Of a stretch of DNA of 64,000 nucleotides, positions 27,134 through 46,098 are shown one piece after another. Position numbers and translations under genes: made by a program. Origin of the DNA: Herpetosiphon giganteus (GTDB taxonomy: Bacteria > Chloroflexota > Chloroflexia > Chloroflexales > Herpetosiphonaceae); NCBI RefSeq assembly GCF_016907925.1, contig NZ_JAFBCZ010000005.1, positions 1 to 64,000 on the forward strand. The letters run 5' to 3'. The notes beneath the pieces were generated by a model, which was not told where the DNA came from, searched no databases, and saw nothing but the letters and a program-made list of their open reading frames with translations. Position 1 is the first letter of the stretch, and every line of letters starts with the position of its first letter.

Positions 27134-27892
27134 ATGCAACTTGCATATATCCCAAGTTTGCTGCGCCAGCGCGCGATTTACGATTTGCCACTTGGGCCAG
27201 CGCGCTTCGAGGCTTATCTTGCAAGTATGACCAATCAAAAACGCGATGGGCTTGAGTGGCCGTTTGCACCGCTCAACCCAATGGGTAAAGCCCATGTGCC
27301 AGTGCATTACGATGCCCTCTTGGCCTTCGATGCTGAAGCAATTGCCCAACAAACAATGAGCGAGCTGCAAACCGAGTTGCCAGCGCTTGATTGTTCAATC
27401 CGTGTAACGTTGGTTGTGGTTGATGATGCATTGGGTGGCTGGACGCAGCCTAACTTCACCGATTGGGCCTATCGCTTTAGCCCAATCCTGAGTGCGAAAA
27501 GTAATTGGCTGCCAGTCTATAGTTGGACGAGCGTTGTGCCAACGCCAGAATTGGTTCGCCAAGCAATTCGCGCGGCAATCTATCGTGCTGGCTATCGTTT
27601 GGTGCATGGCGAGGCCCAAACCTTGGGCGCAATGCTGCATCAAGAGGGTGCGGTTACACGCTTTGCGGGCCAAGTTTTGCCGCATTATCACGAGGATGAA
27701 TTAGCTGCGATGGCCGAACGTATCGCAGAATATCTCAATTCACACGATCAACCGACCCAATTTGCAGCGTTTTATGGCGATGAAATTGCTATAGCGGTCG
27801 GGTATCCAAGTTTAGGGCTGCCAGCCTATGCTGGGCTTGTGGTGGCAACTAAGGCAACTGCGGTTGATCCCATCAGCTTATTAACTGCTTGA
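27134..27892 (+). CDS. Hypothetical protein
   Basis: A 252-residue soluble protein that I do not recognise. It starts QLAYIPSLLRQRAIYDLPLG and has a run of alternating beta/alpha segments (VTLVVVDDALGGW, WLPVYSWTSVVPTPELVRQA) and a His-rich piece LPHYHEDELAAM that could bind metal. No signal peptide or membrane helix. The ATG at 27134 lies 6 bases after AAAGGAG. Composition is back to the local norm after the AT-rich patch. A lipoprotein gene follows 65 bases later. Confidence 0.6.
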   Translation: MQLAYIPSLLRQRAIYDLPLGPARFEAYLASMTNQKRDGLEWPFAPLNPMGKAHVPVHYDALLAFDAEAIAQQTMSELQTELPALDCSIRVTLVVVDDALGGWTQPNFTDWAYRFSPILSAKSNWLPVYSWTSVVPTPELVRQAIRAAIYRAGYRLVHGEAQTLGAMLHQEGAVTRFAGQVLPHYHEDELAAMAERIAEYLNSHDQPTQFAAFYGDEIAIAVGYPSLGLPAYAGLVVATKATAVDPISLLTA

Positions 27893-27957
27893 CACGCCTG
27901 CTATGCTTGCGATTGTGGAAATTTTTCCTAGCGATAGGGCCTGTGAGGAAACGCTGT

Positions 27958-28446
27958 ATGAAACAAGTTCGTCGTTTGGCATCGAGTCTGATGTTGTTGT
28001 TGGTAATGGGTCTTTTAGTGGCTTGTGGTGGCTCGCCAGCAGAAACCCCCGAAGTGCGTTCAGAAAACTTTCTCAAAGATTTTGTGGCTGGGATGAATGA
28101 TCCTGCTTTAGGTGAAGCTGCAAAACAAGAAGAAATTGCTACGAAGCTTGCCAGCTATTTTGCACCCGATCAACGCGCGACCCAAAAAGCTGCCTTGCTT
28201 GAACAACTGCAACAAATGGCTCCCATGGGTGGCCAAATTGAAGCCAAGCTCGAAAATGTCAAGTTTGAAAAAGTTTCTGAATCAGGCGATACCGCTGTTG
28301 TCAAGATTAGCGGTGGCACCATGGTCATGACGGTTGCGGACGAATCTACCTCAGTCGACTTAGCCGATGGTGGCATTGCCCCAGGTTCAAGTAGCAATGA
28401 ATCAACCTTGAAAAAAGTTGATAATGTTTGGTACATCGTTCCCTAA
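27958..28446 (+). CDS. Lipoprotein of unknown function
   Basis: A 162-residue secreted lipoprotein. The signal peptide is KQVRRLASSLMLLLVMGLL with the lipobox LVAC just before CGGSPAETPE. The mature part has a short helical segment (SENFLKDFVAGMNDPALGEA) and then beta strands (AKLENVKFEKVSESGDTAVV, TLKKVDNVWYIVP) as in DUF4878/NTF2-like lipoproteins, though that assignment is weak. The ATG follows GAGGA. A strong hairpin terminator follows at 28473. Confidence 0.75.
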   Translation: MKQVRRLASSLMLLLVMGLLVACGGSPAETPEVRSENFLKDFVAGMNDPALGEAAKQEEIATKLASYFAPDQRATQKAALLEQLQQMAPMGGQIEAKLENVKFEKVSESGDTAVVKISGGTMVMTVADESTSVDLADGGIAPGSSSNESTLKKVDNVWYIVP

Positions 28447-28532: not shown

Positions 28533-29834
28533 TTAGTGGTTTAACATGTTCAAGGCATCTTTGCGTTCGCTGACGAAGCGGTTTTTCAGGCCTTGGATAA
28601 CGCCAGTATCGCTGGTGTTTTTGAAGTAGGCTAAGCGACCGTTTGGCAGCGTTTTGCTGCGTTCGGTATAAATCGCATTAATAATTTGCGATTCGCTCAT
28701 TTGACTGATATTTTGGCCTTTGAGTGCGTTGGTGATAACGCTTGCGCCTGGGCCATGTTGGACTGATGTTGACCAAACAACATCGCGCAAGGCTGGTGAG
28801 TATTTGCTCACATCGAGGCCTGCGGCATTGAGTTTGTTAACTTGGGGTTGATAGTGGGTGTTTTCAATATACTGATGTTGGGCAGCTTTAAAGCCTTCTG
28901 GATCGCGAGCAGCGATTTGTTTCCATTTGGCGGTAAATTCTGCACTACCTGGGCGCAAGCCCTTGAATTCTTCAGCATATTGTTGGCCAGCTGGGTTGCG
29001 CAAAAATTCAGCGACCCGTCCGCCATTGACGGCAACCAGTTTGCCATCTTTTTTGATCATGGTTTGGCTGGTCATTTGGTATGAACCGTATGATGCTCCA
29101 CCAAGGTCGCCCTTGCCCGATGAAACGGTGCCTGGGCCACGTCCGCCGGTTTCGTATTTTTCGGAAAGTTTGCCAATGCTTGAGCCGCTGGCTGCTGCAC
29201 TTGAGCTGCCACCGCCGCCGCCAGAAGCTTTAGCGCCGCCTGCTGGTTGAGCTGAGGCACTAGCAGTACCACCGCCACCACCACCGCCACCACCGCCGCC
29301 ACCACCGCCACCGCCACCGGAAGCTTTAGCGCCGCCTGCTGGTTGGGCTGAGGCACTAGCAGTACCGCCGCCACCACTACCGCCGCCACCGCCGCCACCG
29401 CCACCACTGCCGCCAGCCATAACGCCAGCACCAGCGCTTGCATTGGTTGTTGCTGTTTCAGCAGCACCACCACTTGCAGCACCACCACCAGAAGCGCCAG
29501 CGCCTTGGGTGCTTGCTGAACCGCCACCGGTGAGGTCGCCTTTAAACAGACCTGAGGCTTCTTGCTCGGCTTGTTGCATAACCTTTTTGATTTCTAAGGT
29601 TGTGCCTTGAGCCACTTGGAACGCGTTGATCAAGCGTTGGACTGCTGGCAACAGATCGGCTTGCATTTCGTTTTGAAAGGCAACCGAGGCATCGCCAACC
29701 CAGGTTGAACGTAAGTTTTCAATGGTTTGTTTGAGCGTGCTTTGTAATGCCGTAACGCTTTCAGCATTTTTGCTTAGGCGTTGGGCAACTTGGTCAAGTA
29801 CTTCATAATCAGCTTGAACGATTGGTGCGGCCAT
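28533..29834 (-). CDS. WXG100 protein fused to a lysozyme-like hydrolase
   Basis: A 433-residue three-part protein. Residues 1-98 are a WXG100 domain (helical hairpin with W45-V-G47 in STWVGDASVAF), the export module of type VII secretion. Residues about 101-218 are Gly/Ser/Ala low complexity with two copies of TASASAQPAGGAKASGGG. Residues about 220-433 resemble phage-type and VgrG-linked peptidoglycan hydrolases: LSEKYETGGRGPGTVSSG, GGASYGSYQM and DVVWSTSVQHGPGA; E225 or E228 is a candidate acid. The GGAGG site fixes the start. Probably exported to cut peptidoglycan of self or prey. A ribosomal-type signal peptide is absent. Confidence 0.8.
   Translation of the reverse strand: MAAPIVQADYEVLDQVAQRLSKNAESVTALQSTLKQTIENLRSTWVGDASVAFQNEMQADLLPAVQRLINAFQVAQGTTLEIKKVMQQAEQEASGLFKGDLTGGGSASTQGAGASGGGAASGGAAETATTNASAGAGVMAGGSGGGGGGGGGSGGGGTASASAQPAGGAKASGGGGGGGGGGGGGGGGGTASASAQPAGGAKASGGGGGSSSAAASGSSIGKLSEKYETGGRGPGTVSSGKGDLGGASYGSYQMTSQTMIKKDGKLVAVNGGRVAEFLRNPAGQQYAEEFKGLRPGSAEFTAKWKQIAARDPEGFKAAQHQYIENTHYQPQVNKLNAAGLDVSKYSPALRDVVWSTSVQHGPGASVITNALKGQNISQMSESQIINAIYTERSKTLPNGRLAYFKNTSDTGVIQGLKNRFVSERKDALNMLNH
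29224..29366. repeat. Internal duplication in the WXG100-lysozyme gene
   Basis: A 47-base unit at 29224-29270 recurs at 29320-29366 with one difference, separated by a CCACCG tract that codes for poly-glycine. Length variation by slippage or recombination is likely here. Confidence 0.85.
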
Positions 29835-44163: not shown

Positions 44164-44275
44164 TCTAGCCTTTAATTCAGGGGCTGCGATTGTGGGGTAT
44201 AGTGGGGCTGTGATGAATTGAGGGCGGTGCAATCAGGTTTTCTGTGCATTGGCCCACATCGAGAAGGATTCTGCG

Positions 44276-45415
44276 ATGGCAGCCCCAATTGTGCAAATTG
44301 ATTATGATCGAATGCAGCAGATTAGCCTGCGGTTTCAGCGTTTGGCTGAGCGGGTTAGCTGGTTGCGCCAGCAATTGGAGCAGGTTGCTGAGCGCTTGAT
44401 TGCTGGCGCATGGCAGGGCGCGGCGGTAGTAAAATTTGCCAACGAATATCAGACCCAGCTTGTGCCTGCCATCCAGCGTTTAAGCACCGTTTTGCGCACC
44501 GCTCAACAGCTGAGCCTTGAAGTAAGCGGCCTGATGCATACTGCCGAGGACGAAGCAGCGCGTTTGTTTCGCACGCAGCTTGTGCTCAACCAAACCACTG
44601 ATCAAACGACCTATCTTGAAATTAGCGAAATGCGCCGCGTTGAAGGCCAATTGTATGTGGCTGGCGGCGCTGATATGCGCCAAGGTATTCATCCCAGCGA
44701 TGCTGATCAAGGCCAGATTGGCGATTGTTTTGTGGTGGCTTCGCTGGCGGCAATTGCCCAACACAACCCCGATGTGATTCGCAACGCGATTGAAGATAAC
44801 GGCGATGGCACTTACACCGTCACTTTTTACCAGCGCGAATCGAATAATCGTTTCAATCGCTTGAATAATTGGCTCGATAATGGCTATGATCAAGTCAAAA
44901 TTACGGTTACTGCTGAGTTTCCAGTGCTGGCCGATGGCACGCAGCCCTATATTTACGAAAATCAAGAAATGCTCAATGGCAAACGTGAATTGTGGCCAGC
45001 AATTATGGAAAAAGCCTATGGCCAATTTTTGAGCCAAAGCAGCGATCCAATTGAGCTGTATAGCACGCTCAATCGGGGTGGCAACCCCGCCGATGTTTTA
45101 GAGGCGATTACTGGCCAGCCGAGCGTGCTTGCTGATCCGCAAACCTATAGTATGCGCCAGCTCGCCGAGCTACATAACAGCAACCAAGCGATTATTTTTG
45201 GCACCCACGAGCCTGAAAATCCCTTAGTAAATCAAGCGGCCTTCGTCAATAAACACTTGCAACCCAAACATGCCTACTATGTGAGCCACGTTGATCAACA
45301 GCGCAATCGGGTTAGCTTGCGCAATCCATGGTCGTGGAACGAACCTCCAATCATTGTGAATTATGCTGATCTTGATCAGGTGTTTAATTCGGTGGTGACC
45401 AATCCAATTGATTAA
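44276..45415 (+). CDS. WXG100 protein fused to a calpain-like cysteine protease
   Basis: A 379-residue protein. Residues 1-100 are a WXG100 domain with W46-Q-G48; the first ten residues AAPIVQIDYD nearly equal those of the WXG100-lysozyme protein. From about 125 a C2-family calpain domain follows: DADQGQIGDCFVVASLAAIA with Cys151, ELWPAIMEKAYGQFL, HAYYVSHVD with His332 and VSLRNPWSW with Asn350, the full C-H-N triad. Calpain-like Cys proteases here would cut proteins outside the cell after type VII-like export. ATG 44276 follows AAGGA. The lipoprotein gene comes 14 bases later. Confidence 0.87.
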   Translation: MAAPIVQIDYDRMQQISLRFQRLAERVSWLRQQLEQVAERLIAGAWQGAAVVKFANEYQTQLVPAIQRLSTVLRTAQQLSLEVSGLMHTAEDEAARLFRTQLVLNQTTDQTTYLEISEMRRVEGQLYVAGGADMRQGIHPSDADQGQIGDCFVVASLAAIAQHNPDVIRNAIEDNGDGTYTVTFYQRESNNRFNRLNNWLDNGYDQVKITVTAEFPVLADGTQPYIYENQEMLNGKRELWPAIMEKAYGQFLSQSSDPIELYSTLNRGGNPADVLEAITGQPSVLADPQTYSMRQLAELHNSNQAIIFGTHEPENPLVNQAAFVNKHLQPKHAYYVSHVDQQRNRVSLRNPWSWNEPPIIVNYADLDQVFNSVVTNPID

Positions 45416-45429
45416 TTGGAGTACGCTGC

Positions 45430-46098
45430 ATGCGTTTTTGCTGGCTATTGAGTCTGTTTATGGTATTGATGGTTGGTTGTCAAAGTGCCCAAGACCCGCT
45501 TGCCGACCAAGAAGAGGAACCCTCCACGATGCTAAATCTTGATCAAGCGACGCTTGTGACCTTACGCGAAGGCACCGATTTCCAAATCTCAGGCCTGAAC
45601 CTTGGGGTTTTGCAAATTTTATATAGTTCAACTGAGCCAAAACAACCAATTGGCGTGCGGATTCGCTTTTTAACCACGCCAGCGATCTTTAATTATCATA
45701 GCGAACTCTGGCTTGATCAAACAATTAATGTCGCCAATTATCAAGTGCAATTGCTGGCGATTGAGCAACAATCAATTCAGGTAGCAATTCGTTTGACCGC
45801 TGAGCAAGCGCCAAACTTGCCAATTGCCTCTTTAACTGATGAACAACTTTTGATTGCGCCGCCCAAGACGAGCGTTGGCGATGGCTATTTAACGATTACG
45901 CTTGGTGAATATTATCCGGCCAGCGCTGGCCAAGCAGCGCGCGTTGAATTAAGTTTTTGGGTTAGCAGCAGCGTGCCAGCGCTTGAGCTAGCAGCAACAC
46001 TTGGGCAAGTTATCGAATACGAAGGCTATCGCGTGCGGGTGTTGTGGCTGCCGAATGCAGCCTATCCAATGGTTGCGCTTGGCTTGCAGCCTGAATAA
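45430..46098 (+). CDS. Lipoprotein next to the WXG100-calpain gene
   Basis: A 222-residue lipoprotein. Signal peptide RFCWLLSLFMVLMVG with lipobox MVGC then QSAQDPLADQEEEPS. The mature protein is rich in beta strands, with two similar halves (VTLREGTDFQISGLNLGVLQ and ISVGDGYLTITL-like; YRVRVLWLPNAAYPM matching YQVQLLAIEQQSIQV). No family known to me. It is 14 bases downstream of the calpain fusion, so they are surely co-translated; a role as an immunity or inhibitor protein on the cell surface is a reasonable guess. Confidence 0.7.
   Translation: MRFCWLLSLFMVLMVGCQSAQDPLADQEEEPSTMLNLDQATLVTLREGTDFQISGLNLGVLQILYSSTEPKQPIGVRIRFLTTPAIFNYHSELWLDQTINVANYQVQLLAIEQQSIQVAIRLTAEQAPNLPIASLTDEQLLIAPPKTSVGDGYLTITLGEYYPASAGQAARVELSFWVSSSVPALELAATLGQVIEYEGYRVRVLWLPNAAYPMVALGLQPE

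Follow-up and report, generated by a model that had tools for sequence, protein, structure and literature searches.

What does Herpetosiphon giganteus do with a protein that joins a WXG100 module to a calpain-type protease domain, and why is its gene followed at once by one for a lipoprotein? The locus lies in a 64,000-nucleotide stretch of this Chloroflexota bacterium, referred to here as the window (positions 1 to 64,000 of contig NZ_JAFBCZ010000005.1, assembly GCF_016907925.1). The reading that we favour, and consider likely from sequence comparison and modelling, is that this WXG100-C2 protein is a protease effector exported by a type VII secretion system (T7SS) and held in check by a lipoprotein immunity protein. 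The WXG100 hairpin would address the protein to the EssC-like machine of Herpetosiphon, which would export the protease; the calpain-fold domain would then cleave protein outside the cytoplasm of the producer, at the surface of cells nearby or of prey, while the lipoprotein would neutralize the protease at the producer's own membrane by binding and inhibiting it. The features concerned are as follows.

44276..45415, + strand: WXG100-calpain (C2) fusion gene, 379 aa, an open frame with an ATG start
44291..44560, + strand: WXG100 module, residues 6-95 (PF06013, TIGR03930, EsxA superposition)
44681..45337, + strand: Peptidase_C2 (calpain CysPc) domain, residues 136-354 (PF00648, calpain superposition, dN/dS)
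44699..44701, + strand: Asp142, equivalent of calpain-2 Asp96 in calcium site 1 (profile alignment to calpain chains)
44708..44728, + strand: oxyanion-hole Gln145 (44708-44710) and nucleophile Cys151 (44726-44728), invariant in 24 homologues
44987-44989, + strand: Glu238, site 1 partner of Asp142 (profile alignment to calpain chains)
45269..45271, + strand: catalytic His332, invariant in 24 homologues
45323..45331, + strand: catalytic Asn350, then Pro-Trp352, invariant in 24 homologues
45430..46098, + strand: lipoprotein gene, 222 aa, lipobox LMVGC17, proposed immunity protein, 14 nt past the protease stop, with a ribosome site (ggag) at 45418-45421

The first-pass annotation had read positions 44276-45415 as a WXG100 module fused to a calpain-family protease with an intact triad of Cys151, His332 and Asn350, and both points stand: the coordinates of the reading frame agree, both domains score above curated cut-offs, and the three residues lie at those positions. 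A TTG at 44249 is a possible alternative start upstream; the ATG at 44276 is preceded by a good ribosome site, gagaagga at 44261-44268. The N-terminal module matches PF06013 with 30.4 bits (cut-off 27.3) and TIGR03930 with 46.4 (cut-off 44.85), carries the WxG turn as W46-Q-G48 (44411-44419) and, in the predicted model, forms a two-helix hairpin, the three features that define the WXG100 superfamily. Within it W46, G48, E91 and E93 are invariant, and where a YxxxD/E export motif would be expected, residues 87-91 read by eye as [M/L]xxxE, with Met or Leu replacing Tyr. The C-terminal domain scores 65.7 bits against PF00648 (curated cut-off 23.8). Q145, C151, H332, N350 and W352 show no substitution in the 24 homologues, which come from several phyla, and the catalytic residues are likewise constant in all ten Herpetosiphon proteins. 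Profile match, Cys-His-Asn triad with oxyanion Gln, and the protease-core fold of the AlphaFold model together place the domain in peptidase family C2, and the protein is probably an active protease. A Pfam match to T7-like gp12 at residues 164-208 reached 20 bits, below its cut-off of 22, and was judged a chance overlap within the C2 domain. The protease shows no signal peptide on inspection by eye, and we therefore do not favour Sec as its export route.

Whether the WXG domain has the hairpin fold, and whether the C-terminal domain superposes on calpain, were structural checks proposed at first pass, and the model bears out both. Built from 24 sequences, it has a mean pLDDT of 81, with much of the C2 domain in the 80s-90s and low-confidence stretches at residues 98-112, 131-135 and 191-200. 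In it, the N-terminal region forms a single long helical hairpin (helices 10-45 and 49-99), which superposes on EsxA (3zbh) with Z 10.3 over 90 residues at 1.9 Å. The C-terminal part fits calpain cores with Z 21 at 2.8-3.0 Å, about 230 residues being aligned within 102-379. The best superpositions are on inhibitor-bound cores; the calcium-free m-calpains 1kfu and 1df0 score 14-15. The better fit to inhibitor-bound than to calcium-free calpains is a weak hint, AlphaFold having been trained on solved structures. Behind the calpains, the solved folds that come next include staphopain, which superposes on the model with Z 10.8.

The suggestion that calcium would activate the protease outside the cell fares less well. 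In profile alignments with solved calpains, Asp142 and Glu238 align with both acidic ligands of calcium site 1, the placing of Glu175 opposite Glu238 depending on the calpain numbering adopted. Asp96 and Glu175 are the acidic site 1 ligands listed for rat calpain-2 (PMC4631099). The aspartate is retained in 23 of 24 homologues and the glutamate in 18 of 24, and each in 10 of 10 Herpetosiphon proteins. Calcium site 2 is absent, as the chain stops 27 residues past Trp352 without the site 2 loops; E356 varies among paralogues; and a Pfam profile scan found no EF-hand domain in the protein. Most bacterial calpain homologues are predicted to be calcium-independent (PMC4631099). With the acidic pair, the part of site 1 that the alignment covers, kept and with site 2 and the EF-hand missing, the suggestion is weak overall; calcium activation is, from sequence, possible and not indicated.

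The first-pass annotation also knew of no standard annotation for calpain domains on a WXG100 carrier, but the fusion is on record. In 2015 Rawlings listed WXG100 domains in calpain homologues, three from Herpetosiphon aurantiacus and a single one from Segniliparus, and the reviewer L. Aravind suggested in the same paper that WXG100-calpains are likely to be T7SS toxins (PMC4631099). The genome of H. aurantiacus DSM 785 (CP000875.1) contains a syntenic orthologue (76% identical) as well as two other WXG100-C2 genes, a number that agrees with the three proteins of the Rawlings list; because of that listing and these genes, we count the fusion as already catalogued. The architecture of the H. 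aurantiacus and Segniliparus rugosus proteins is identical to that found here (PMC4631099). Rawlings gives the domains by name and proposes export, and an operon, a lipoprotein or a partner gene go unmentioned in that paper (PMC4631099). What is new here is the constant lipoprotein partner gene, together with natural loci where one of the two has been lost. The C2 family occurs in 10 of 400 Chloroflexota genomes, including all six Herpetosiphon genomes searched.

An export machine is encoded on the same contig as the WXG100-C2 gene, at 232-249 kb. This T7SS locus contains an EssC/EccC-like ATPase and four small genes, two of which match WXG100 models. Genes for an FHA protein and a VWA-FHA protein lie there as well, along with two WXG100-headed genes. 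The ATPase (2,946 aa, C5:236932-245772) exceeds the EssC, EccCa and EccCb cut-offs of NCBIfam together and adjoins small WXG100 genes, a combination that a genome with T7SS effectors is expected to encode. It has seven FtsK/SpoIIIE stretches; the usual length and FtsK/SpoIIIE number of EssC/EccC proteins are about half of this.

The WXG100-C2 protein is one of a series. There are 18 WXG100 matches in the genome. About 16 stand at the head of longer proteins of 330-470 aa, among which C-terminal domains of at least six kinds occur: C2, VgrG3-type, Ntox44, PGAP1-like hydrolase, DUF6973, glutamine deamidase (twice) and a weak CHAP. By an eye tally of these roughly 16 genes, a lipoprotein gene is immediately next in seven and is the second gene in three more, and two have no evident partner. 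The gene after the Ntox44 gene encodes a membrane protein and that after the C20 gene a protein without a signal, neighbours that would fit other sites of action.

Several of these loci have features of their own. A second WXG100-headed protein in the window (28533-29834, - strand, 433 aa) has a low-complexity Gly/Ser/Ala linker and a C-terminus that resembles T6SS VgrG3 (PF21277, 213.7 bits), with a weak GH46 match; given that VgrG3-like domain, it is probably an effector that cleaves cell wall or sugars. Convergent to it runs a lipoprotein gene (27889-28446, + strand). Behind each of the two glutamine deamidase genes (L053 206-3097 and L054 2280-5662) stand three or four related lipoproteins in tandem, with a common C-terminal motif of the pattern AVKxHxRQLGKL. 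Proteins of 261-272 aa that form one family, at about 20% identity, adjoin several WXG100-headed genes (L050 7792-8589, L052 2665-3477 and 5657-6475, L048 787-1572). By eye the family resembles EspG chaperones, a claim that we dropped, as none of the scanned Pfam and NCBIfam models for EspG families matched and a PDB profile search returned no EspG chain.

The lipoprotein gene follows the WXG100-C2 gene directly, after gaps of 5-23 nt, in all ten Herpetosiphon loci (the window locus, four orthologues and five paralogues), although loci of the same genus are not independent and the independent cases amount to about four lipoprotein families. The products measure 217-222 aa in the orthologue group and 126-128 aa at four paralogues, and one paralogue locus of H. 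llansteffanensis has a tandem pair of 144 and 122 aa. The arrangement recurs in an Anaerolineales MAG (L059), where a small WXG100 gene is followed by a WXG-like-C2 gene and, after 11 nt, by a lipoprotein. Lipobox reading frames are rare otherwise, at 14 of 151 in the sampled loci, some of which are bounded by contig ends, and most of the 14 adjoin WXG100-headed genes. Profile comparison detected no homology among the three Herpetosiphon lipoprotein families beside C2 genes, and none of the lipoprotein families matched Pfam or PDB profiles above threshold. A single fold for all lipoprotein partners was considered and rejected, HHalign comparisons of the Herpetosiphon families with the others being not significant; the AlphaFold model of the lipoprotein (pLDDT 36, from two sequences) is too poor to use.

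Natural losses bear on what the lipoprotein may do. In one genome (G005, contig C146), only a C-terminal remnant of the protease remains, a 109-codon reading frame, with an intact lipoprotein beside it. Intact 128-aa lipoproteins without a protease occur on contig C15 of the H. giganteus genome and C43 of G005. At another G005 locus (C92), a further WXG100-headed gene is followed by three lipoproteins, one distantly related to the 222-aa family, and counterparts of all three stand on C13 of the H. giganteus genome without a WXG100-headed gene. A second genome, G004, has no stretch matching window positions 44205-45589, a clean deletion that takes out the protease gene entirely and cuts away the beginning of the lipoprotein gene; the lipoprotein remnant carries two in-frame stops, decay that is weaker evidence than the orphans because the lipoprotein's own start went first. 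It is typical of immunity that partner genes occur in tandem, and that strains without the toxin carry them (PMC10765036). The Herpetosiphon genes show two marks of polymorphic toxins, namely a common export head with varied C-termini, and partner genes that are adjacent, orphan and tandem.

The same observations have to be set against other uses of the protein. If exported, the module could work in scavenging, where the lipoprotein would be its receptor or anchor. Against the favoured reading stand also the lack of detectable homology among the three lipoprotein families, the two WXG100-headed genes with no evident partner and the inexact match to the YxxxD/E motif. The protein might also be a digestive protease of a wolf-pack predator, secreted through the T7SS or by another route, with a lipoprotein that merely guards or tethers it and no competition with kin, a reading that we hold to be unlikely. 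Several C2 homologues do come from predatory groups, Lysobacter and Archangium, for example, belonging to groups known for predation. Herpetosiphon, too, has been described as a wolf-pack predator, one with secreted hydrolases (PMC6210107). Yet digestion accounts less well than immunity to other strains for the orphan lipoproteins and for the protease remnant with its intact lipoprotein, and the pairing of paralogous proteases with unrelated lipoprotein types fits polymorphic toxins.

The pattern of divergence bears on readings without a toxin. Between species, dN/dS is 0.05-0.12 for the C2 part, which is under strong purifying selection, 0.17-0.31 for the WXG100 module and 0.13-0.17 for the lipoprotein; identity is 80-96% for C2, 65-89% for the WXG100 module and lipoprotein, and 87-99% for the flanking genes. 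A non-toxic housekeeping or signalling protease, with WXG100 as a dimerization hairpin, the cell's own surface proteins processed in or on the cell, and the lipoprotein as substrate or cofactor, would explain the constraint on C2 and the conservation of the same flanking genes around it in four other Herpetosiphon genomes. We nevertheless think it quite improbable, as the gene is cleanly deleted in G004, the WXG100-C2 paralogues are patchy across Herpetosiphon species, and the WXG100 module and lipoprotein diverge faster than the flanking genes. That the domain is an inactive relic with a calpain fold is hardly to be believed: no bacterial calpain has been securely characterized biochemically (PMC4631099), which leaves room for the idea, but the catalytic residues are invariant in the ten Herpetosiphon proteins and the 24 homologues, dN/dS is low, and inhibitor-bound calpain cores give the best superposition.

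The exported effector with lipoprotein immunity that we prefer has relatives among known systems. The LXG/WXG toxins of type VIIb secretion (TelC-TipC, EsaD-EsaG, TspA-TsaI) resemble it in having an N-terminal helical export domain and a variable C-terminal enzyme, and in having an adjacent partner gene with tandem and orphan copies elsewhere (PMC10765036). Unlike these, the system described here belongs to Chloroflexota, ends in a calpain-type protease and has lipoprotein partners. Eukaryotic calpains share the CysPc fold, the Gln-Cys-His-Asn set and the acidic pair of calcium site 1, whereas the Herpetosiphon protein is without EF-hand, C2-like domain and calcium site 2 and has an N-terminal WXG100 module; its partner is not detectably related to any solved protein. 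Staphopain and staphostatin, whose genes are paired, offer a further parallel as a papain-fold bacterial protease with a dedicated inhibitor, the role that we propose for the lipoprotein. Staphopain differs in peptidase family and secretion route, and staphostatin is cytoplasmic, whereas the partner here has a lipobox.

Pairing extends to C2 genes elsewhere. In 14 of 25 C2 loci outside Herpetosiphon, the next gene, starting no more than 80 nt from the stop, is one for a small or an exported protein, with starts as chosen by script. A 119-124 aa protein without a signal follows the Myxococcota C2 genes (Archangium and others; L060, L062, L063, L065, L068, L075) and is homologous to the lipoprotein after a Microbacterium C2 gene (L079 5654-6502; HHalign 93%, raw score 47, against a maximum of 18 in 100 column shuffles); the Lysobacter/Luteimonas partner is likewise homologous to that of a Rhodospirillales MAG (HHalign 85%). 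In Microbacterium sp. MAH-37 the C2 protein (L079 4233-5657) has an N-terminal helical region resembling a T7SS-type head, and the lipoprotein gene overlaps the C2 stop by 4 nt. That distant taxa conserve the pairing suggests that a dedicated partner often accompanies a bacterial calpain; we found no published statement to this effect in the open-licence literature. A bolder version, to which we give somewhat less than an even chance, is that bacterial calpains generally have an inhibitor in the next gene, a counterpart of calpastatin drawn from unrelated small exported proteins, and that in Herpetosiphon such a pair serves as a T7SS weapon, with immunity conferred by the lipoprotein.

We found no experimental study of type VII secretion in Chloroflexota in the open-licence literature, and the Herpetosiphon genome papers that we found do not mention WXG100 proteins. 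If the favoured reading is true, type VII secretion in this phylum would bring a calpain-type protease into play between bacteria, the partner lipoproteins would inhibit calpain-fold proteases while differing from calpastatin, and the WXG100-C2 protein would be a candidate molecular weapon for Herpetosiphon predation.
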